A stretch of 64,000 nucleotides of DNA from positions 1,178,001 to 1,242,000 of the forward strand of contig NC_135250.1 of NCBI RefSeq assembly GCF_964204865.1, read 5' to 3'. The translations under genes were made by a program, and so were the position numbers. The stretch comes from Styela clava (taxonomy: Eukaryota > Chordata > Ascidiacea > Stolidobranchia > Styelidae). Positions 28,026-61,800 of the stretch are shown in pieces. The notes beneath the pieces were generated by a model. That model was given only the letters and a program-made list of their open reading frames with translations. It was not told the origin of the DNA and made no database searches. How positions within the stretch are numbered: the stretch's first letter is position 1; each line of letters starts with the position of its first letter.

Positions 28026-31000
28026 TTATGAAAATATGTAAATGGCGTGAAGGCAACGAGCGCTCTGACATTTGAAGCAATGTTTCATTCTGCGCTTTCC
28101 TGAAATTGCATAAAAGATGTTTATTCGTAGGGAAACATGAAATCAGAAACATTTAGTTAGAATATTTAGCGCTCCCGTAGTATTCGTACCAAGATGGCAC
28201 ACAACCTGCTAACCCTAACCTGGTACACATACTATGTTCAGGTTGTGTGCCATCTTGGTACGAATACTACGGGAACACCGAATATTTTTGTGAATATCAT
28301 TTTCTTTTCTCTACATTTATAATATTTATACATTTCTTCTCGATTTTTATCTTTTTTTTGAACAATGTTGAACAATAATATTCAACCATTTTGGTATTGC
28401 TATCTTTTTATTCAGCTGAATTTATGAATTTTGACGCAATGACGAACACAATAAATATATATATTCATCCGGCGACTATGTTATATATAGGACTGTCATA
28501 TATGTAATTGTGACTTTTGTATTTTGATCGGTACTCCAGACACATGAATCAATGAAAACTTAAAGTCCATAACTCCATATAAAATTGAGGGATTCACCTT
28601 TGGCAGACAAAAAAGATGGCGGCGATGCGAAATTATCGTCCGAATCGATTCGAATAATTTACTACTCCAATATTGTCCACAAGGGACAACATGAGATAAT
28701 GGATGGATGAGCGTTATGCATTCAAATTTTGTAACCATACTGACTGATTTCCCTTCGAAACTGGAGTGATTGTAACTGTCAAATTAACAAAATTATTCCT
28801 CTTACGTTCTGCGTCTGGAAATTTATATCTCTTCTGTAGATTTCTTGAAAGCGGTTCGCATTGATAATAAAATTTTCGGGTTGACCTTCGGATCTGACAT
28901 AATTTTTTGGAACAACGGTACATTGCTCCATCAACAGATTTCCCCGTCTGAAATATGTTAATATTATGCAAAATGGCCAAATAATATTTTTTCAAATACG
29001 ATGTTTTATACGTCTTTCCCTCCGAACAAAGGTCTTTACAAGCATCTATTTTGAGGTTGGTTTTTTCACGTGGTTTTTATATTCCTTTCCCCCAAGATAA
29101 AGGCTTGATTGAAAGTCTTAAAATTTAAGTTATTCGCCTTGTAGTCATGAATATTCGCGGTAATCAGTTGAATTTAACTCAACTACGAATTAAATTGCTT
29201 ACCAATAACGGCGTTATATTTTCCATTTCTTCGAAAAAGGCTTCTTTAAACTGCTCCGTTTCTTCACGAGTAAATAGACAAGAGCTCTGAAATAAGAAAT
29301 GGTATTTATAAATGTTGAAACAGCGAATCATTGGGAAGACTGGTGTATATGAATGCATCAGGTAATGTTTCAGACGTTCGCTCTAGATTTGGTTAGTTCT
29401 ACACAATTATTAATTTTCAAGTTTACTTATCCATACTCGATTATTGGTATCGGTGTTTAAGGCAAACGTATATGATAAGTAACAAATGAAATCGATCAAT
29501 CTCTGCAAACCCTAATTACTTGAGTATGTCAGTTATATTACTACCAGTTCTGAAGAGTTAAATTTTCATTACATTTTCTTGGACAGAAACCTCAATTTAC
29601 CAGTAAATATAGTTTAAGTTGATTGAAGTGGCCGACTATTGCTATTTTTCATCGGCTTTTGTGCGAATGAATCCGAATGCAATGATCGCAAGGATACTAT
29701 GTCAAAAATCAAAACGCCCATGTTGAGTAATCGATTAAAGTATATTAAAACTAACTACTTTAACTTGAATCAAAACGTCTATATTAAGTGGTCCCAAATC
29801 CCACTTACACTATTAAGATTTCATTCTATTACAGAGTTGTTGTGAACTGTTTGTTCCGCAAGACCTTGGAACCACTCAACACTACTAAAATTATCCCATT
29901 GTTAATCTTACGTTATCTGGGTTGTCTTCACAAACGTGTAAGACATCCGGATCCGGAGTGCATTCCGGAATTTGACTCCATTCGCTATCGTCACATGTCA
30001 TCGTTTCGTTCCCAAGAAGAACATAAGGATGCTCACATTTAACCTTGCACCCGTTCACGCGACCGGTCTCTGGATCTGGGAATAATTTTTACGAAATTAA
30101 TTGTGCTTTGTAGTGTATAATGCAGTATTCATAAAACGCTCATGATTCAAGCCTCCCAGACCCTGCTTTTTAAAAAAAATACTTATTTTAGCTTTAAACG
30201 AGACATCAGTTCTTTCATTCGACACTTTTAATAATAAGAAGCCAGCAAACGAAAGCAAAATAATTACAGTAATTAAGTTAATTACAATAAAATTACTTTA
30301 ATGAAATCACCGCAAATGGTACATAATAAAATTAATGCTCATGGCCCTCCAGAGAACTGCTGCATGCGACGAGGGTCCAATTTATTGAACTCTAGCTTAG
30401 TGTATGGATGGGAACCAGCAACAGAACTGGTTGACCGATCGAAATATTTTCGGGGAATGAAAACAAAGAAGACCAAATTCTGTTTTAATATGTATAAAAT
30501 TAGCAATTGATTTGCCACAGCATTTCGATGACCGGAAAGCTTTTGTTAATTCAGCATATCTTAGACTAATATATTTGTTTTCGAGTTTGACCAGAGTGGT
30601 TTGGAACAAATGAAGCGCAACAGAACGTGAATATCTAAAACAGGGTGGTCCAAGGTTGTCGCCTCCGCGGGCCACAAAATTATTTTTGCATTGTTCGCGG
30701 GCCACAATAGTGCCAAGGATAGGTAAACAGTGCAATACAAAACAAACGCTTTTATTGTGCAAACACATAGTTATCAGTCATAGCCATTCTAAGCTAATAG
30801 AATCCGCATTCGTTTTTCAGTTTTCTATGATGCCTATATTGTTAGGTTATATTCTCGACCAAAAAGTTAGAAAGCCAGATAACAATTTAGACTGCCAAGC
30901 ACATCATTCAATTTTGCTAGTTTTCCCAGCTAGCCATAACACTATTTAATTCAATGACATTAGTGATAACAATATGTCAAAAGATTTTTCTGATTAATTT

Positions 31001-33715
31001 TATGACGAAACAACACGAAATGCGATTTTTTGAAAACTCTGCGAATGTGACGCGGGCCACAGATAATAAAGCGGCGGGCCATATGTGGCCCGCGGGCCTG
31101 GATTTGGACCACCCTGATCTAAAACATCGAAAAACGTAGATATTTATTGATTACGTCGGATGTTTGCATAACTCCATCTTACCTTGTGTACACGTTGCAT
31201 CAAGATTTTCTAGTTTCCTCATGTCACAATGGTAGGCGGGGTCCGGTTCACATGTGGGCGGAGCAGCAAATTCACCGTTGGAGCAAAACACTTTAGCCAA
31301 TCCGTGAAGAGTGTAAGTATCGTCACAAGTCACCTGACAGCTTTCAGCCAATCCAGATTCATCTGAATTACATTCAACGGTCCCATGTTCAACTTCAAGC
31401 TTTGATTGATGACACTTTGTGCGAGGTATCACTGTATTGAGAAGATAGATTTTTAGTGTGTCAATGTTTTATTGTTAAGTCGTCTTCACACAGCCTTTAG
31501 TCTGCGACTCTTACATTTTTTCAAGATAGTATCACCACATAGTAAAGTGCATTTGGGGTTTGTTCGACTATTCATTGATTTTAGTTGAAAGGACTTTTTT
31601 GAACAAAGCGTTGCAAACAAACTTGATTTTATATACATGTCATCTAGTAACGCATTTCATGAAGCGAAACATATCAATGTGAACAATCACATTTAATCAG
31701 AAAAATATCTTTCAAATACCTTCAAACATAATAGTCTTGCGTAAATGGGTTAAAACGTTTTTTATTTGATAAAAGTTTTCCATGACTATTGCAACTTACT
31801 TCTATATTTGGCTTCAAACCCGCTGAAGCCGAAATCACCATTGCTGACAAAATTGACGGTAACTCTACCAGTTTTGGAAATAAATTTGAACGGCGTTTCC
31901 AAAGTACCTTCATAATAAACTTCTTGCTGACGATTTTTCGACCTTCCATCTAATATCTGTGAAAGTTTAATCATCTTATTATACTGTTGCTATAGTAACA
32001 GTGTTTAGTGTAAGTCGATAAACTGCGAGTCACTCTAGTCGAATCAATCACTAAGTTAAGTTAATAGCGAGACCGAGTCATACCATTTGAATGACACAGT
32101 CACACGAGTCACCTCGAGTTCTCGATAAACGGGAACTCGAGTCAAGTCAATACCTCGAGCCTCCCAAACACAATATTGCAGGGTTTGTAACCTTGAATAC
32201 AGAGGACCAGATACCACTAACTGGGTGAAACCGCGGGTCGTACCTTCATTTAACACAGGCTTTTTAGTTATTGTTATTTTGGTTATTGATCTTTTGACAT
32301 GTGTTATTCGATTCGCACAAGCTAGGTGTTAGGGAGGACACTGTAACGTCACATGCAGAATAAATTGCACTCGTGTGCTCTGCAACGCAAAAGGATTCGA
32401 ATTGCTGGCACAAACCAGTTAACACTAAGTTAAAAACTCGTTTCGCGGGCCGCACAATATTCAAAATCGAAACTTCTCAACGGACCGCACAAGTTTTTCT
32501 TGTGGGCCGCAAGTCGCACATCCCTGCTATATTGTAACATGTATATACCAGGGTGGTCCAGTCCCGGGCATGCGAACTTGGTTGTTCTGATAGCACTAGG
32601 CCTACTAACGCTGCAATTTATAAATTAGTCAAATAAAATAATTCATTATAAAATGAATGTCAAAAGAAAGATGACAGAGGAAAATAATGACAGAGTTTAA
32701 TGCTAACTTGGAGAAAACGTAATTTTTCGCCTACAACAATGGTAAACTGTCTGGTGAGCTTTCAAGTAATTTCCGTTACTGAAAGTGATGCAGAAAAATG
32801 AAGCAAGAAACAAATAATTGCTTCGTTATTTGTTTGTTGCTTTACCTTCCTTGAAATATGAAAACGCCACCCATGCAACATAACAATAGTCTGGTTAGAA
32901 CGGTGAACTTTCATTCTTTAAAGTAAGTAAACTCGCGGTATTTTAATCACGTATGACGGTATGCGTTTTCTCAACTGTGGCTCAAAAGACCTTCTCAAAA
33001 TTTTTAGCGGCCGTTCATTCTCTCAACTTTTTACCACCCTGGTATATGTCAATTTAACGAGCTTTACGAATTACCTGGACAAAATCAGTCTTTTCCTTGT
33101 CACCTTTATATTCCAGTTTAAATTTTGTGAAAGTAATTTCCACGTAGTGCCCAGATATTGCCTTGATGAAATATTCGCATTTTGCATTATCTGGATACGC
33201 TCTTGGGTGGCGAGGGCTTGAAAATGTTCCGGATTTCGATGTGAATTTTTCGTCCTTGCATGTGTATGCTTCTGCATATACTGAAAGCAAACAGAAAATA
33301 TAAAGTCAAATATTGGCGACTTACAAGGTATCAGAGGGCCTCGTCATTCATTTCCTATTATTTCGTTTAAATGTGGTCAGGTGAATAATAAATGAACTGT
33401 TTGTAAGAGATTTTTATTGCATTCATTTTAAAAATAGATCAATTTTATGGCAATAAACAAACTTTTCTGCAGCTCAGGCCCCTCAACAACCAACTCGAAT
33501 TGATAACCAAGTGATTATGAAATATATATTACATCCGAAGCGCTTAGCACTAGTTGCACAGAGAATCTTTTTCCAAGCAACTGGAATCGCTCTTTAGATA
33601 GATTATTCGGAATTAAACTATTAGGTTTATCAAATTTTAATAAATTAACCATAATGAACTTACCTTCAAGTAAAATTATCAAAACATATACGGCAATGAA
33701 AGGTATCGCTTTCAT
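28026..33715 (-). CDS. Secreted CUB-CCP-CCP protein with C-terminal eight-cysteine module
   Basis: Exons (minus strand, 5' to 3'): 33715-33664, 33280-33075, 31956-31800, 31431-31183, 30075-29912, 29286-29203, 28947-28806, 28099-28026. All junctions are GT-AG and in phase; the product has 375 residues. A signal peptide (MKAIPFIAVYVLIILLEG) is followed by one CUB domain (exons 2-3) that keeps the first cysteine pair but lacks the second. Two sushi/CCP domains follow, each with six cysteines as in selectin-type CCPs. The last three exons encode a module with cysteine pattern C-x8-C-x36-C-x4-C-x12-C-x24-C-x2-C-x4-C and an acidic amphipathic helix near its start. No membrane segment is present, so secretion is inferred. 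CUB and CCP domains mediate protein binding; the partner is unknown. The gene at 42.4-46.7 kb is a paralogue through its signal exon and this module. Confidence 0.87.
28171..28276. mobile_element. Inverted-repeat MITE, copy 4 (compact)
   Basis: The arms GCTCCCGTAGTATTCGTACC and GGTACGAATACTACGGGAAC are inverted, each next to AAGATGGCACACAACCTG or its complement. The centre is CTAACCCTAACCTGG. It lies between the last two exons of the CUB-sushi gene, 72 bases from the final exon. Confidence 0.85.
30641..31116. mobile_element. Non-autonomous hAT-like element with exact 8-bp target duplication
   Basis: It starts CAGGGTGGTCCAAGG and ends TTGGACCACCCTG. The octamer ATCTAAAA lies on both sides (30633-30640 and 31117-31124). 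Subterminal GCGGGCCACA blocks occur at both ends in inverted orientation. No transposase is seen. It sits in the intron between the two CCP exons of the CUB-sushi gene. Confidence 0.9.
32179..32526. mobile_element. Probable hAT-like element
   Basis: A left end CAGGGTTTGTAACC and right end GCGCACATCCCTG-like sequence (GTCGCACATCCCTG) are flanked by CAATATTG and CTATATTG, seven of eight identical. GCGGGCCGCAC and GTGGGCCGCAAG occur near the right end. The terminal repeats match only over the outer CAGGG, so the boundaries are less sure. Intronic in the CUB-sushi gene. Confidence 0.5.
32549..33041. mobile_element. Non-autonomous hAT-like element
   Basis: CAGGGTGGTCCAGTCC at the left pairs with TTTTTACCACCCTG at the right. 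The flanking octamers GTATATAC and GTATATGT match at six positions. It lies 23 bases after the previous element and 34 bases before CUB exon 33280-33075. Confidence 0.75.
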
Positions 33716-38150: not shown

Positions 38151-38158
38151 CTCTAGAC
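38151..38158. other. Target-site copy CTCTAGAC (first of three)
   Basis: This octamer is followed immediately by an element end (CAGGGGTTCTCAAAC). The same octamer recurs at 39211-39218 and 40446-40453, between and after two hAT-like elements. Confidence 0.9.
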
Positions 38159-39210
38159 CAGGGGTTCTCAAACTTTTTGTGTTGCGGAGCCCTTGAAAAA
38201 GTTAACTATTATTCACGGAGCCCCAAAATAAATGTTAAAATAGTTACTTTCCGAATAATATTCCTGAGTAAATTAAAAGTACTGTACTTATTTTAAATGC
38301 TAGACCTCTTTTAATAGGGTTAATACAAGTCATAAATGAATCTAAATGTCAAAGATAAATTATATATACTAAAGCTGTAAATTTGACACTTGACAAACAT
38401 GTTAATAAATTAGGGGTCGGATCTTTTCCCTTTAGACATTTTTAAAAGGCCGCTAATAACATACTCGATTGCATTTTGTTACGATCGCCGATTGTTTTCG
38501 TCAGCATGGCGGTGTTTATTCTCCCTAAATCATAAATTTCCCTCGACAACAATACATGTATTGTTCCACAATGACGACGAGTATTGCTTTTTTGGTCTCG
38601 TGGGGAATTATGAGTTTAATGTGAAAAACACGTTAGCATATCATAGTCATGGAGACGAAATGCTAAAAATAATAAAAAATAAAAAGGTAAATCCGCAACT
38701 CAAATTTCTTGATTGGAAAGCGCATTCTGAAATATCAAAACTAAACCTTAAAATGGAAGATAACACTATAAGTTTTGTTTCAGCAGACTCACGTCAGATT
38801 AAAAACGTTTTCATAGACATTGTAAATCACAAAATTTGGTGTTATGTTGGGTTTTCTTCGGTTATTCGTCGTAGTAACTGCGAAACCGAAACACAGTCAA
38901 TTGTGTGCGCGATGTTCCTATTTTTCCATTCAGAAACTACCGACGGAGCCGCATGCAATGAAATAAATTTTAATCTTTCGTTTTTTGCCCCGACCTCATG
39001 ATTTTTCAAACGGCGATATCTTGCTCGTGAGTGCGAAAGAACAAAATCAAGCTTGACAAATCACAAGATCGCAAAAATACGATTGCAATTTGTATAGTTT
39101 ATGTATTAGCCAATTCAGTATTTTGAAAAGTAATCGAATAGCTCGCGGAGCCCCTGGTTTTTTTTTCACGGAGCCCTGGGGCTCCGTACGGAGCACTTTG
39201 AGAACCTATG
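38159..39210. mobile_element. hAT-like element A with internal open frame
   Basis: It starts CAGGGGTTCTCAAACTTTTT and ends GAGCACTTTGAGAACCTATG, an imperfect inverted pair, with CGGAGCCCC blocks inside both ends. It is flanked by CTCTAGAC on both sides. An open frame of 169 codons on the plus strand (38492-39001) fills much of it. That frame has no hAT transposase motifs and I do not recognise it; it may be cargo or chance. Confidence 0.8.
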
Positions 39211-39218
39211 CTCTAGAC

Positions 39219-40445
39219 CAGTGGTTCCCAACCGCCGGTCCGCGGACCGGTACCGGTCCGCGAAGCTTTTTTGCCGGTCCGCGAGAAATTTCGTTTTATG
39301 TCGTCTCAATCCCATTACCGTAGGTTGCGTTGGTTTATTACGCAATTTCTCTTCCGCCGTCATATTGCGACGTCATTCGCGACATCGTGGCGCCGAGTAA
39401 TCACACTTTTCGCTTTTTCTTCTCCGATTCATCGCGAATGCGCTCCATCAAATCTCGCAAGGTTCAGAAACCTAAAAATCGGCACGCGTGCTTTTTCTGT
39501 TCTGCGTGCTCATCGTGATTAATATGATCATCCATATAAAACGTTATGCATATTTCATTGTTCAAACCAGAAAACAGTCAAGGACAGTATAATATTCCAA
39601 TATGATATGAACTTGTTGCGATCCTGCAGGTGATCACGAGACGCGCAAAACAGCATGGGCGCAGAGATCTTTTTCAGTATTTTGAGCCTGGTAGCGACGA
39701 CTTTGTCATTGTATTGTAAACTCATTCCGTTTGAGGCATCGATCAACTGCAGAGGGATTAATATGATAAACCCGATGAAAAAGAAACCTCTTGATTAAAA
39801 TTGTGACTCTACCTTACAGTCCAGATTTAAAAAAGAATCACTGTCATTATTTTGGATATCTCTTGATAACGAATACCCATCGCTAAGTAATCGAGCAATA
39901 AAACTCTTGTTCGTATTATCAACCAGTTACTACATTATGCGAAAAAACATTTTCATCACTAGCTTTAATTAAAACGATGCAAAGAAATCGGCTGCACACC
40001 GCTGCAGAGCTACGTTTTGCAGAAACTTCTTTAAGGCCTCGTTTGCAATCGTGCATCGGAAACGAAACAGCAGCAAAATTCTCATCAGAGTTTGTACATT
40101 ATTTGGCATTTACATGTTTTTTATGTGAGATGTTTTACGCGTGGCCTTTTTTACGCATGATGGGTGCCCAGCACTGCATTTCATTACGCAAATATATGAT
40201 ATTATTTTATGTTTCACCCATTTCAATTTTTAGCCGGCACATTATTTAATAGTTTTTCTTCGTGTGAAATGTTTTTAAGTGTACCTTTTTTGTCTAGAAG
40301 CATATTGAGTGCCCGGCATTGCATTATATTACGCAAATAAATGTTATTCTTTTCTGTTCCGGTCATTTCAATTTCTTTGCCGGTCCGCGAGTACTTTTAT
40401 TTTAATTTTACTGGTCCGCCAGGGTAGAAAGGTTGGGAACCACTG
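39219..40445. mobile_element. hAT-like element B with decayed transposase
   Basis: It begins CAGTGGTTCCCAACCGCCGG and ends AAGGTTGGGAACCACTG. GGTCCGCGGACCGG and GGTCCGCGAG blocks lie near the ends. The octamer CTCTAGAC flanks it at 39211-39218 and 40446-40453. At about 39835-40090 (plus strand) the frames read NEYPSLSNRAIKLL, then after a frameshift FSSLALIKTMQRNRLH. This is the C-terminal dimerisation region of hAT transposases (Charlie/ZBED-like). It is too short and broken to be active. Confidence 0.85.
39835..40090 (+). pseudogene. Frameshifted C-terminal fragment of a hAT transposase
   Basis: Two frames together resemble the conserved hAT C-terminal block: FWIS..NEYPSLS, then a short hydrophobic strand, then a CEKTFSSL-like motif, IKT..RNRL, and a final LR..L. 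The frame changes near 39935, and stops occur. It is a relic inside element B. Confidence 0.65.
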
Positions 40446-40453
40446 CTCTAGAC

Positions 40454-42388
40454 AGGCGACTGCTTGCAAAAACAGTTCGATTGCATCATCAGCGCCATCT
40501 GGCGTAGAGCTATACGAAAATGACACTAGTTTCCTGCAAATATTTGTCAAACTTCTATCATCCTGAGGCTACGAAACTATTTCTTGTGCCTGGATATTAA
40601 TTAAAAACCTGAGTGTCAAAATTTAAAAGAAAATATCACTCTCACTTTCAAGTACTGAAAATTTGCATGTAACTGTCAGTATATTAAAACATATATATAC
40701 ATAAAGTGGATATTTGCTGAGCAAATGACGATGACGTGAAAATATTTTGATTTGGAAGTCGAGTAATACTAATTTGTAGAACAACCCAAAGTCTACCTCA
40801 GCTCAAAAACATGGATTTGAATTCAAATTATAGCCTAGCTCTTAAAAGTAATCGTACAATTATTTACTGATTAGTTGGACAGAGAGACATAATCAACTGT
40901 AAAAAGTATATAATTAGAAGAGTTCTTGTGCTTTTTTGTGCGTGTTTCTTAAATTTGTTTATACCACACACAAATTAAATGTCTGGAATATGATTCAAAG
41001 TTTGGAAATATCCTGAATTTTGCCTATTTGCCTTGTACACGCGTTTCCCTTTGTCGATATAACTCGGTGGAACTTATGCCTTCCCGTGACTCACTGCCCT
41101 TGTTGTACTGAGAAAGTTTTCCCGTTTTGCTGTGTTTTGTTTAAATGTTTTGAATAAAATTTATTGAAAAAGATTTACATTATTGTGCCGTTGGCAGGCA
41201 GACGAAATGATAATTTATTGGTTATGGACAAACGCATAAACGTTTATAATATAATTTATCTTATTTTTTATTTTATCATGCTCTTTAGTCTGAATGACGA
41301 CGAATAAAAAACAACTCGAATGATTGATTCAAGTTAAAAACAAATGAATAACAGAATATCCATACCCGAATCATCATGCAAATATAAGATATAACAATGA
41401 TCAATATTTAAACACGAATAAAATTACACTTATACGGGTATGTCATGTAAAAGTGTTCTAAGAAATTAAAAATAAACAACAATATTTTGGGTGAAAATCG
41501 GGCATGTATGCTTGAATAAAAGTTAAAACCTTCCAGAGACTTCTTTCCTTCTTGAAAACAAAAATTGAAATTTATCGGACGATTCGTCAAAGTAAAAAGC
41601 GACTCAGTTCACAACAATGACTTAGCAAAACGATTCATGTGCATAATTTATGTCCAATAATCTGGAGAACGTGACATTAGTAACTGATGTTCCGTTTGTT
41701 TTGCGTCGAACTTTTGACCAATAATATTTAATTTTCGCGTTCCTCCGTTGCAGTAATAAACCTATAAATAGCACCCAGCGATATTCTTCTATCAGTATAA
41801 TTTTTAATTTTAGTTAAAAGCTGGGATTCTCGCTTAATTTGTTTATACTAAAATGTTTACGTTAAATCCGTGAGAACGAGTTGTAATCGAATCGTATATG
41901 ATTTTGCATCACCAAGCAGCCAGCTTTAAAGCGAAATGAATAAAATTTGTTGAGGTAAATATTGAGGTTATGCTGTTTTTAATGTTGAAGACAATGGGGA
42001 CTGTAATTTCTTACTGATTTTCGAGACAGAGTCGAAGCCATTTTCGAATTGTCAAATATTCTAAGAGTCGGGAGTTAAAGTCGAATTGTTTTTAATCGGT
42101 AAGCGGACCCCGGTTGCAATTTGTCAACACGGGGCCGGAGTCGAATTTTTGCATAACTCAAAATCGGGAGACGAAAGGAACTTTTCCCGGCTCAACGGCG
42201 TTCATTCAATAAACTCTACGATAATATGATGGTTCCTTGATATAAAATAAAAAATGATTGGGCATTAATCTCTACGATAAGATGAAAATTGAACAAGATA
42301 AGAAAAAATGATTATATAGATCAGAGGTGATGGAGGTTCGTTCCACTTGTCAGGTAGCGTCCTCGTAAATGCAGAAGAAATTTAAAAA
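40454..42388. other. Intergenic DNA, no gene recognised
   Basis: AT-rich sequence with only short open frames. Around 42010-42180 it contains GTCGGAGTC-like and GGAGTCGAA-like wording also seen in the phospholipase intron at 8.6-9.2 kb. Confidence 0.5.
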
Positions 42389-45300
42389 TCACAAATAATG
42401 AACAGATTCTGCCAGTTCACATTTACTCCGACATTTCAGGCATCCAAGCACAGCATTCCTCCCTGAAACAAAACGAGATTGAGTTTTGTGAGAATTTTTT
42501 GAAATAATATTGTACACGATTAGTTAGAGTGTTTTGCTAATTAGTTGAAATGAATATTTGATCGAATTTAAATTATTAGTATTAAAAATGATTTGAGCCG
42601 CTAGAAGAGCTATTGGTAGCATTTTTTTCAACTTTATTATTTCTATGGGATTCGACATTTCACCCAAAACTTTTTATTGTGATTGACATCTGATTTTCGG
42701 AACTGTTGATGCTATTAACACACCGATGTATTTGAAGAAACAATTGGGAGATGGCCAACCAGTTATACACTAAGATTGTTTTAAATAAGTTTTTCATAGA
42801 AAGACCCTAAACGGCCAACTAAACTGTAACGGCCATTGACGCAATAAGAGTTCAATTCATAAGCTTATCTCAGAGATAGAGATGCCAATAAAAGGGTTGA
42901 CATAGCACTTGGTTCACGCATCGCAAGGAAAACAATGGTATTAACGCCTCATTTAAAGACGTTAAAGTTTAACTTTGGACATTTCGAGTTCAAAGCCGGT
43001 CTCCAACATATTGCTAACGGCGTAATAAAGTTTGTAGGGCGTGTAGAAAATGATGAGGGTCAGGCGCTTCGAAACAAAGTGGCTCTTGTGAATGAGTTGC
43101 TGCTGCCTGATACTGTATTTAATAATTAGGGTTGGTTAGTTCCAAGAAAGCAAGATTATGGTCCAATAAATCTGGCAATCATCCTATTTTAAAATGTCAA
43201 GATTTTTTTGGCACAACATCGACATTTGAGCCATATGGGGAATGGCTACAAAAGATCTGACTTACTTTGGTAATGCCATTTTAAGGTTTCGTCGGTCAAA
43301 TAATCCTGACAGTCGATTACATAGTATCTCGTCTCTTCTGATTTACTACAGAAAGGAGAACAGGCCTTGGGAAGTTTCGATATACTTGTTGTCGTCTTTG
43401 CTGCAGTTCCAATGCCAATAATTCCGGGTATCTTTGTGGCTCCTATAGTCACCTCCTTCGTAGAAATTGAATTAGGATCGACAACAGGTCCAACAGATTC
43501 CCCCTGAAAACAATTGCATGAACTTAATTCTTGAATATATTTTTTGTTATCAGGTGAATCAGAATATATATTTTTGTTATCAGGCTTATCCAAGCCCTCC
43601 GCTTCGCTATTCGATAGTCACTGATATTTAACGACATGTAAGGACCTTGTTTAGAAAGACCGGAAGAATTCCGCTCCGGTGTTGCCCGCCCATTTTTTTG
43701 CATCTTGAGGAGGGGCTATGAGATTCAAATCAGATATGTGCAATCTGCAATGCCAACAAGGTTGGGTTTGGCGACCCTTAGCATATATTAGATCGATAAT
43801 GCGGTACTATTTTCGGCTCTCCAGAAGTATGTGTACCAATATGGAAGTAACTAATTTTGTTTGTCTATTTACATCAAGTTGTGTAAAGGAACGGAAACCT
43901 ATGGACAGGGGGTATATTCGCTTGGCTAGCACAGACAGTCCCAAACTCGTACTAGACTAAAATAAGGAAAATCGGAGTAAAAATATTTCCTAATCTGGTA
44001 CACATACTAAGCGAGTACTCTTAAGTAATTTTCTCAGTGTTGCTTGAGGTCACGCCAAAAACAACTGATTGGATCTCAGTCAATTACCGTGTAGCCTTAG
44101 GCAGCTCCCTTTTTAACAAATAAAACAATTTTACCTCCCCGGAAAATTCGCCTGTGTCGAATTTAAACAGTTCTTCCATTTTTTCTAAGAGTTCTTCCGC
44201 GGTCCATTCACATTTACTCTGAAATGGAAATTTCAAGTTGAAACAAATTATTGCAGAAGTTGTGTGATTATAGCTTAGATCTATCTAATTATTCAAGATT
44301 TGTCGGGTCAAAGAAGGACCTAAACAAAAATATCCCAGTAGCAGTGGCCATCTATGTATCTTGAACAACTGTAGCCTTATCGAATAATCGTCTTCTCGAC
44401 CCAGCTTTATAATAGGAATATAGTTCAACCCACAGATATCCAACATTTGGCGACAAAGAATTTCAGTTTAACCTGCTTACGGGTTTCGCCTGTTGAGCTA
44501 GGGTGCGAGAGCTAATTAAATGAAGTCTAATTCTAACTCGATTGTTGAACCAAATTTAGCGTGTTATTACTCAGCACGTACCTACAGATCATTTTACCCA
44601 AATCTCATTGTTTTCAAAGTGAAACAAATCAACTTCATTTAATCAGGGATCATTTACATATATTTTCCTAACCGATAACTTCACTGATTAGAAGGGTTTA
44701 AAACATGAACTTTTTCATAGTTGTGTTTTATATATATGTAAAATAGCTTTAGTATTAACAAATTAGTATTAAATCGTTCACACATAACAAGATGTTTGTT
44801 CATTTAACTACTTATCATCGATATCCGCTTCGTAATAACGCCTTTGGCAAAGCATTTCGAAGCCGAGTTTATATTACGAAACAAGGACGAAGCGTTAAAA
44901 ATAAATCACTTGTACTCAACTACGTGTTGTTTTCGTAAGTATGATTAACGAAAATCCAAATTTCAGTTTTGGAACAAATTTTAAATTTAGATATTTTAAT
45001 CGGTAGATGTTCATAGTTGTTTAGAATCCCGGTTTCGTTGTTAATTCTATTTTTGTGTTATTATAGATCAAGAAAATAAGTTTTGAAGTGAGGACACAAA
45101 TATGACGTGTAAGCTTGTTAAAATATACATGTCTTCTATATTAATTTTAACCTGTTTTTTTTCTCGCTAATCTGGTAAATATTTTGTCAAATCAGAGTAA
45201 GGATTATTCATATCTATCCCGAAAAACTGAGGATAATTATATGTGAATCACGGCCTCTAGTTACAATTGCAGTATAAAAATAGTTATCAATATAAACGAT

Positions 45301-46690
45301 GGAAATTCCACGAAGGAAAAAGCCTTAGCCGACCAGCGGCTTTGGATTACGTGTGACGACCATAAATATCATAACATTATACGGTGCTACTTGAGCGTGA
45401 GGCCTACCGCAATATGTAGCCTACACCTGACGTCTACCACGTGAGGGATTATACAGCGATATACGCTAAATTGCTAACGGGAAGGTAGCCCTCGCGCCAA
45501 ATTAGCACTCGTTATAATGAATCAAGCTTAAGGCCCAAGATATATTGACTAATAGTGCAGTGATAGTCGTATTCCACAACCCAGAACGTTCCGCTGGTCA
45601 TATGTAAACCATTATACCTTATAAGGCTTATATTACAGATTCTATATAGTTTATGACATACCATGCTCTCTAGACATTCGTCAATCATGAGTTCGTCTGC
45701 AGATTTTGGTTTAGGAGTCGTAGGCTCAGTCGTCGAAGGAGGACGCGGTGTAGTGGTCGTCGTAGGCGTCGTCGCTTTTGTGGTAACTTTAGTAGTTTTG
45801 GGAGTGGTCGGTATGTAAGGGAATTTAATCACTGAAGGGATCGTTCTGGGGATACCGAACGTAAATTTGGGAATTTTGATTTTGATCTTTAGTTTATCGA
45901 GGAATCCGCCTTCTGTGCCTGAAAGTAACAAAAACAAAATTGAGTGACATTTGATCCAAAGCGAAAATGCGTTGAAGGGACAGGATGTTCAAAAAACGCC
46001 ACACATCTGGCTAAACAAAACGGGTAATATTGCAAACAACCATTCATATGGAAGACATCGTTATCAAATATTAATCGATGAGCCGTTATTACCGATCAGG
46101 GAAACAAAAAACTCCTTAAAAAGTTTAAACGAAAACCGCCATTTAGTTTTTTATCTTAACAATGAGGAAGGGGTTTCAAGACACAGAATTGCGAATGATC
46201 TCCGAATTCTAGTCGAAGGTTTCAATCAATTTGAAATTATAACTTGAAAAATAATCTCTACAAGAAAAAGCCGTCACACCCAGTTTTATACGACGTCTCA
46301 TCTTTTTATAATATAACAAAATAAAATTTTTATGACAGTGTGATGTGTTACGGCCAAGGCTAAACAGCTGTACACTGGAGCTCCTGAATAAAATTAGATT
46401 TATCAGAGTCGCTGTCACTATTTTAAGAATCGGGAGTCGAAAACGATTGTAAATTTACAGTCCCGGTTGTGAACTTGTGTTACGAAATGCCTGTCTTCAG
46501 TTTTACGTATCTTGTACTGCTGGATACATATGGACGGAGCTTATGAAGTTGAAGTTCATAGCAAACCCTTATTCCACATAATACAAGTTTTACAGACTTC
46601 TTCTCTTTTAAATTAACATTATTTTTCGTTAAACTTACTTGTGACATAACAGAGCAAAAGTACGGCTAGAACTGACGTAAAAATCTTCAT
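42389..46690 (-). CDS. Secreted Lys/Ile- and Thr/Pro-rich protein with eight-cysteine module
   Basis: Exons (minus strand, 5' to 3'): 46690-46639, 45918-45662, 44218-44135, 43503-43266, 42462-42389. All junctions are GT-AG and in phase; the product has 234 residues. The signal peptide is MKIFTSVLAVLLLCYVTS. Exon 2 begins with an alternating basic/hydrophobic stretch (LDKLKIKIKIPKFTF), then a Thr/Pro-rich segment likely to carry O-glycans, then DECLESM. The remaining exons encode the module C-x6-C-x72-C-x3-C-x12-C-x21-C-x2-C-x3-C; the long gap is a Thr/Ser-rich insert in exon 4. Exons 1, 3 and 5 (52, 84, 74 bp) equal the matching exons of the CUB-sushi gene in length and phase. I do not recognise the module. 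It may bind a partner through the disulfide-rich end. Confidence 0.83.
43815..44022. mobile_element. Inverted-repeat MITE, copy 8 (divergent)
   Basis: The left end CTCCAGAAGTATGTGTACCA followed by ATATGGAAGTAAC is the complement of the right end of the copy at 59805. The right end has CTGGTACACATACTAAGCGA. The inner part (AAAGGAACGGAAACCTATGG) also matches that copy inverted. It lies between exons 3 and 4 of the Thr-rich gene. Confidence 0.7.
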
Positions 46691-58897: not shown

Positions 58898-61800
58898 ATG
58901 GAAAAGAAAACAATTTCATTATTTATAATATTTTTCGTCATCGTGACAAAAAAAGAATTTTCTTCTGCGCTACCAACAAACATTTCTGAAGAAGCAGAAC
59001 TAAGATTTATAAAAAATGTTTACGAAGGCGAAGACAGTCGAACACTTTTTATGGAAAAAGTGCAGAAATTAGGACGAAATAACACAGACGCGGAGTTGAA
59101 TATGCTTTTGCCATATAATAATTTAATGTCTCTTGGGTCCCTCAAGTGTTCCGCTTGCAAATTGACATTAGAGTACGCTCTGTGGAAGTTCAAAAAACCT
59201 GACGGAACTTATGATGGGTTGCCAGAGTTTGTTGAATCCGCCTGTAAAAGATTGAAAATAGAAACTACAGACGTCTGTGATGGGATTGTAACAACTTATA
59301 AATCTGTGGTAAGCACTTATTTTATTTTCCAAAAAAATTTGCTTATAAGCAGCCAGGGTCACATGTATTCCGAAGCAAAGTTTCCCGAAATGCAGAAAAA
59401 ATACTGAAACCAGGGATTGCCAGAACCACATACTTGACTATTTCGAATACATTCTAAAAAAATGTTTTTGAATTTGGAATTTTACTACATTCTAAAATAC
59501 CCCACATCTGCCATGTGTCATAAGCACTTCATGTCGGCGCTAATTGAAATCTTTTGAAATTGGCTGTAATTTATTGCACAAGTCTGTCTTCGATTACGAT
59601 GAAATGAAATGGCGCTAAGTGTGTGCAATATTTAATATTCTTATCAAAAGGATATTCGAATATTGAATTCAAATTGGCCATACCTGACTGAAACTATATA
59701 GATTTATGATGATGCATCATGTGCACTTATTCAGGAGATTGATTTCTGAGAGAAGCTTTTTACTGAAGTACCAAAAGACTAAAAAAAATGTTTTCAGAAT
59801 AAGTGGTACTCCCGTAGGGTGTGTACCTGGTTAGGGTTAGGCTGTAACTTTATTCCGATTTTCCTTATTTTAGTTCTATTTTGGGGACTGTCTGTGTTAG
59901 CCAAGTGGAATTACCCCCTGCCCATAAGTTTCAGTTCCTTTAGATGACTTCATGTAAAGTAGCCGAACAAAAATAGTTACCTCCATATTGGTACACATAC
60001 TTCTGGAGCGCCAAATAAGTGTAGTGTAGAATTGTCATAGTCGTTTTGCTAATTGTAATAGTTATCTTATCTTTTCAGGTTCTCACTTTATTGCATGAAC
60101 TCCAGTTAACAGGCGAACAAGTTTGTGGACTTATCCTTCCATCAACTTGTTACTCCGCAGATTTACCTTGGAATAAGATTAAATGGAACGTTACAATACC
60201 TGGTGTCATCCCCAAGAATGCCACATCATCATACACCAGAAATACTAGAGGCACAAAAAGCACAGCCCGAGTTTTACACCTTTCCGATATCCATATGGAT
60301 TTAAATTACAAGCTGGGTGGAAATGTCGACTGCTCTGAACCGTTATGTTGCAGGGACACTAAGAAAATGAAATCAGACTCAAGGCAAGCAGGGTATTGGG
60401 GCAGTTTAGGATATTGTGACACACCTTACTGGACTCTTGAAAATTTTTTACAGCAAACTTCAAAAAATACGTACGATTATATTATCTGGACTGGAGACTT
60501 ACCAGCTCATAATGACTGGAGTCAGAGTCGTGACAATCAGATTTCTGTCCTATATAATCTCACTTCTCTGTTAATAAAATATTTTCCGAAAACCCCAATC
60601 TACCCTTCTCTCGGAAACCATGAAAGTTTCCCGGTCAACAGTTTTCCTCCCCGGTATGTGGACGACAACAATTCAATAACATGGCTTTACAAGGCACTTA
60701 CAAAAGCATGGTCGCCATGGTTACCAGCCGATGCCCTTAAATCTGTGAGCCAATCAGGCTGCTACACGACCCTAGTGCGGCCAAGGTTCCGTATTGTGTC
60801 ATTGAACATGAACTATTGCAACCAACAAAACTGGTGGATGCTGATTAACCCTGTTGACCCAAATCATGAACTCGAGTGGCTTGTGAGTACACTTCTGAAG
60901 GCAGAACTCAACGATGAGAGGGTTCACATTCTTGGACATATTCCTCCAGGTGAATGAGTTTTATTGTAATACAGTTATTTTATTTTTTATACACGCAAAG
61001 TCGAGAACATCCAGTTTGTAAATATTTGTTACCAATCCATGTGTGGTATGAAAATAGTTTACCAGATACTCATATGGGATACATAAACTTAATAAACATA
61101 AATATATACCCAGATCAGACGAAACGTTACACAAATATATCAGTGTTAGTGTGCAGCTGGACGCACTAAAGATCACTTGGGTTAATTATTTTTACTCTTG
61201 CTACAGCCTCCTTGCATTATAACCATACTGATACACTAGCACAAAGGCATAGAAGAAAGACAAGTAGCTGAGAGAAAGCCCCACAGAAGACAAATTATAA
61301 TCTAGAAGGTTGTGAAAGCTGTAAGCCTATAATCAACTGACTAGGGGTTATGTAAACCACAGTACAGAGGCGAATAGTCCAGCAATCCCATCGCATATAT
61401 TTATATCCCACCGGATTCGAACGGCTCGATTAGATTTGAACCCACGACAAATGCACCTGCATACTCTTGCACCTATGGAAATTTGCATCTACAGATATTT
61501 GAACCCATACTAACCCTCTTCCATGGAAATTTGCATCTACAGATATTTGAACCCATACTAACCCTAATCCATGGATTTTAGCAATGATATATAGATTGAA
61601 CCCACGGATATACGGGTGCAAATGTGCGTGGGTTCAAATGTGCTGTCACCGATTCGAACATGAGAAATTGTTTAGGGTTTTGATGCACCAACCACGGAGC
61701 CATAAGTGACCTATTTTGCGATTCACAAATATGTGTGATATTATAGTAAAGCAAGAACAACTGATAGGAAGTCTACCAATAGTGCATGTAATAGAGAAAC

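Follow-up and report, generated by a model that had tools for sequence, protein, structure and literature searches.

An eight-cysteine module at the C-terminal end of secreted proteins in the ascidian Styela clava

The stretch of Styela clava DNA considered here, 64,000 nucleotides in length and termed the window below, is C1:1178001-1242000 of a 376.6-Mb genome that comprises 379 contigs. On its minus strand, in the same orientation and about 13 kb apart, are two genes whose ends are alike and whose middle parts differ. Gene 1, as read after splicing, extends over eight exons between 33715 and 28026 and specifies 375 residues, with a signal peptide, a CUB domain, two sushi-like domains and an eight-cysteine module in that order. 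Its first exon (33664-33715, 52 bp, ending in phase 1 with a GT donor) encodes what is by eye a signal peptide. The CUB domain is divided between 33075-33280 (206 bp, phase 1-0; Pfam CUB E 2e-19) and 31800-31956 (157 bp, phase 0-1), the first sushi-like domain and the beginning of the second are in 31183-31431 (249 bp, phase 1-1), and the remainder of the second, the larger part of it, is in 29912-30075 (164 bp, phase 1-0). Querying Pfam with the protein, in a version with one wrong residue at an exon junction, gave CUB (PF00431) at residues 25-137 with 70.4 bits against a cut-off of 21.4, and Sushi with 22.1 bits for the entire protein against a cut-off of 20.7, all of the sushi matches being N-terminal to the module and none within the module itself.

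The module is completed by the last three exons, designated a (29203-29286, 84 bp, phase 0-0), b (28806-28947, 142 bp, phase 0-1) and c (28026-28099, 74 bp, phase 1 to the stop codon). The initial annotation had proposed these three, with their lengths and phases 0, 0 and 1, and the canonical splice sites found at those positions, AG acceptors on all three and GT donors on a and b, bear it out. It had also placed in them the whole of the pattern C-x8-C-x36-C-x4-C-x12-C-x24-C-x2-C-x4-C. The spacing is exact, but only seven of the eight cysteines are where it put them, since the codon for cysteine 1 lies upstream, in the sushi exon 29912-30075; exon a contributes cysteine 2 and an acidic stretch, b cysteines 3-5 and c cysteines 6-8. 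The intron between b and c contains a foldback repeat (28161-28286) with 48-nt arms that are 92% complementary. It is present on many contigs, and of the 88 matches to the genome nearly all, the window itself aside, fall on it; a related core, CCAAGATGGCGGAC, has 11 copies in the window at two mismatches or fewer, where 0.14 would be expected.

Gene 2 is made up of five exons, the first starting at 46690 and the last ending at 42389, and its 234 residues comprise a signal peptide, a Thr/Pro-rich stalk and the module. The signal peptide, again judged by eye, is in 46639-46690 (52 bp, ending in phase 1), the stalk and cysteine 1 are in 45662-45918 (257 bp, phase 1-0), and the module continues through exon a (44135-44218, 84 bp, phase 0-0; cysteine 2 and an acidic stretch), exon b (43266-43503, 238 bp, phase 0-1; a long linker and cysteines 3-5) and exon c (42389-42462, 74 bp, phase 1 to stop; cysteines 6-8). 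Its cysteine pattern is C-x6-C-x72-C-x3-C-x12-C-x21-C-x2-C-x3-C. That this gene shares with gene 1 the order of the cysteines, the x12 and x2 spacings, and the 84- and 74-bp exons in matching phases had been pointed out at the start, and all of it holds. The two genes correspond in two further features: the signal-peptide exon is of 52 bp and ends in phase 1, and the exon with cysteine 1 is of phase 1-0.

Is the resemblance confined to these neighbours? When the genome to which the window belongs was searched at the protein level with the gene 2 module, there were four matches, three of them to its own exons and the fourth, to exon b (query residues 72-117), at C3:1288556-1288693 on the minus strand of another contig, one of chromosome size (E 4.8e-4, 35% identity). 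Around the latter match a third gene can be read, from C3:1290614 down to 1287981, with five exons (55, 266, 87, 244 and 74 bp) for 241 residues and with the phases of gene 2, exon by exon. Its module exons are in phases 0-0, 0-1 and 1 to stop; exon a is 87 bp, compared with 84 in the other two genes, and its end is the least certain because the donor, GTGTAG, is weak. The cysteine spacing is 6, 75, 3, 12, 21, 2 and 3, near-identical to that of gene 2. With phases as in gene 2 and so similar a spacing, the module is homologous, dispersed in the genome and terminal in position. As the gene was found via one exon and the remaining exons then fell in the right phases, it provides an independent test of the claim that the module is a shared one, a test which the claim passed, and homologues with the same exon phases, many of them, had been named beforehand as part of what would sustain it. 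Unused in any definition, this third gene is the strongest support for the module. Its second exon (C3:1289661-1289926) contains an additional C-x-C and a stretch very rich in Arg and rich in Tyr, to which nothing in genes 1 and 2 corresponds.

All three genes have their eight cysteines in one common order, the x12 and x2 spacings are invariant, the module exons have phases 0-0, 0-1 and 1 to stop with a last exon of 74 bp, and the signal-peptide exon is short (52, 52 and 55 bp). What varies is the linker between cysteines 2 and 3, twofold in length (36, 72 and 75 residues in genes 1, 2 and 3), and the part between signal peptide and module, which is CUB plus two sushi-like domains in gene 1, a Thr/Pro-rich stalk in gene 2 and Arg/Tyr-rich in the third gene. 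Conserved in a three-row alignment are E-E after cysteine 2, an Arg that precedes cysteine 5 by six residues, another where exons b and c are joined and, close to the C-terminal end, the C-x-K-C that had been picked out as a core from gene 1. Since cysteines 3 and 8 of gene 1 are wrongly placed in this alignment, spacing counts are relied on here instead. The acidic stretch after cysteine 2 is present as described in the initial annotation, but a shuffle test did not bear out an amphipathic helix in it, its helical moment being reached by 2476 of 5000 shuffles for gene 1 and 1062 of 5000 for gene 2. Two N-glycosylation sequons are in the gene 1 module and none in that of gene 2. The net charge of the module is +7, -7 and +4 in genes 1, 2 and 3, differences that speak against one conserved charged binding surface. 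A structural model of exon b of gene 2, made from its alignment with exon b of gene 1, is of low confidence (mean pLDDT 49.8) and represents a single exon and not the whole module; it shows three weak strands, beginning at cysteine 4 and continuing beyond it, in a block with pLDDT of 66-71.

The family has at least three copies, a number derived from genome searches with the modules of genes 1 and 2. Scans for the exon signature and with profiles gave no further copies in the window, nor in the 264 kb of contig C1 that surround it; the profiles were built from the copies in genes 1 and 2, both of which match them by construction. The next-best exon b match in the window (E 0.14), when read, was without the cysteines, and the plus strand of the 264 kb has look-alikes comprising one 81-bp exon similar to a and three similar to the terminal exon, two of the three being one reading frame. 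Pattern scans of viral contigs, three in number, gave 0, 162 and 23 matches, and of prokaryote contigs 507, with no confirmed relative in either, as expected because the module belongs to an animal gene.

The window has other occupants. From about 38151 to 40460 are two adjacent repeat-like elements with the ends CAGGGGTTCTCAAAC and CAGTGGTTCCCAACC, which we take to be hAT-like; the 8-bp repeat CTCTAGAC is before, between and after them, and a 169-residue open frame in the first (38492-39001) matches no Pfam family above its cut-off. On the minus strand between about 12366 and 23700 are several LDL-receptor class A repeats, probably belonging to one long secreted or anchored protein; two of the frames were scored by Pfam, at 24.1 and 23.9 bits against a cut-off of 24.1, and the rest were recognized by eye. 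On the plus strand at 58898-60957 a Metallophos frame (E 8.7e-14) is downstream of a cysteine-containing frame which is saposin-like by eye and has no Pfam match at E 0.1; together the two are reminiscent of acid sphingomyelinase.

To what, then, might the module be related? Its assignment outside known families has stood up to searches of Pfam with all three modules (nothing above cut-off; the weak matches, with a best E of 0.068 for gene 1, fall far short of the families' cut-offs), of NCBIfam with those of genes 1 and 2 (no match), and of PDB sequences, where the matches were of the chance kind with a best E of 0.28. A literature search directed at ascidians and tunicates, and covering for the most part papers outside subscription, found no description of such an eight-cysteine module. 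EF-hand, Kunitz, ShK, cystine-knot and Ly6 were considered by their spacings, and none fits. In small domains rich in cysteine, sequence similarity is often lost altogether, and a rather unlikely reading is that the module comes from a disulfide-rich family already described, from which it has diverged so far as to be invisible to profiles, and that it works in the same manner. The GDNF-receptor/GAS1 domain is an example of the kind. It is extracellular and cysteine-rich, with ten cysteines and a C-x-C before the last of them, and its C-x5-C-x10-C stretch and late C-x-C are loosely like parts of the module. Against kinship are the ten cysteines, the different spacing and the lack of a gap of 36-75 residues after cysteine 2, besides the want of any significant Pfam match for three modules or of a PDB sequence match better than E 0.28. 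With the limit set at E 10, none of the three modules matched the GDNF-receptor/GAS1 Pfam profile itself, a limit to be read with the knowledge that HMMER filters discard most matches above about 0.1.

Comparison can also be made with whole proteins. Gene 1 resembles CUB-sushi secreted proteins in its signal peptide, CUB domain and two sushi-like domains; unlike them it ends in a module that is neither CUB nor sushi, and which gene 2 and the third gene carry without either. The oikosins of the Oikopleura house are secreted proteins, about half without recognised domains and some with CUB or sushi (CCP) domains (PMC3390340), and the likeness of the module proteins to them is one of kind, by description and not by sequence. 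Ascidian vCRL1 is like gene 1 in being a secreted or cell-surface protein with sushi domains; it is unlike it in that the passage on it mentions no such cysteine module, this comparison too being by description and not by sequence (PMC9265791).

Just before cysteine 6, at or beside the b/c junction, all three genes have basic residues, RKRR in gene 1, RR in gene 2 and RK in the third, and the junction Arg is invariant. Could these mark a site of cleavage, so that the module would be a propeptide-like ligand, cut into two chains held by disulfides, with the released or exposed part signalling? The recurrence of the residues in three of three genes favours this, but a furin-like motif is in gene 1 only, and basic residues are frequent elsewhere in the gene 1 module; we consider cleavage improbable. 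A shade less probable still is the more ambitious proposal in which an undescribed secreted disulfide fold, with interchangeable N-terminal parts and a dispersed family, would be cut at the conserved basic site to give a disulfide-linked two-chain ligand.

There is also the question of whether gene 1 belongs with the other two at all. The score of gene 2 with the third gene is 10 to 14 standard deviations above shuffles, 0 of 2000 of which reach it. For the modules of genes 1 and 2, none of 2000 plain shuffles and none of 2000 with the cysteines fixed attained the global alignment score, and with another seed 1 of 2000 of each kind did so; BLASTP gives them only 18.1 bits (E 0.030). Exon by exon, c is clearest (24 of 5000 plain and 115 of 5000 cysteine-fixed shuffles reach its score), followed by b (172 and 239 of 5000), and a on its own is without significance (411 and 911 of 5000). 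A protein search of the genome with the gene 1 module gave three matches, all to its own exons, and found neither gene 2 nor the third gene, so that the link of gene 1 to the family depends on the structure of the exons, the order of the cysteines and the pairwise scores. Among these, the score of gene 1 with the third gene is 5 to 6 standard deviations above shuffles, 0 of 2000 of which reach it. The two parts of the signature, a splice-flanked 84-bp exon and a 74-bp terminal exon, each occur twice on the window's minus strand and not at all on its plus strand, and the totals for both strands of 40 Markov-resampled windows are 1 and 1, a control that flatters because the signature was written with both copies already seen. 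That the likeness of gene 1 arose by convergence or chance, leaving it outside the family, is thus the least credible of the readings, for all that the single shuffle in 2000, the low BLASTP score, the insignificance of exon a and the genome search can be cited for it, since the comparison with the third gene and the identical 52-, 84- and 74-bp exons, in the same phases and orientation about 13 kb apart, tell against it together with the signature count. The modules of genes 1 and 2 are, as first claimed, common by homology, on the evidence of alignment scores, exon phases and the third gene.

The gene family is genuine, yet of an ordinary kind. The most likely reading is that secreted proteins which otherwise differ are capped by the module as a disulfide-rich domain. 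More fully, the three exons and cysteine 1 would on balance constitute the C-terminal disulfide-rich domain of a small secreted family, where it might act as a cap for binding or assembly. Secretion, already part of the original claim, accords with the signal peptides recognized by eye at the start of the proteins, and these, with the CUB and sushi domains of gene 1, would place the module outside the cell. For a module there, four disulfides from eight cysteines are the natural inference, and the module may be a compact terminal cap suited to self-association or ligand binding. The proteins so capped would be of the extracellular, matrix or humoral-defence kind. How might the family have spread? 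In all three genes an intron of phase 1 follows the signal peptide and exon a is preceded by an exon of phase 1-0, which suggests that genes were duplicated and middle exons gained or lost, and not that a symmetric module was inserted.

Lineage-restricted secreted cysteine-rich families are common, and the find is correspondingly modest, of relevance chiefly to the study of extracellular proteins. If the favoured reading of a capping domain is true, a terminal disulfide-rich domain would join the building blocks of secreted animal proteins, and its exon signature, phases 0, 0 and 1 with a 74-bp last exon, would permit members to be traced where sequence similarity has faded.
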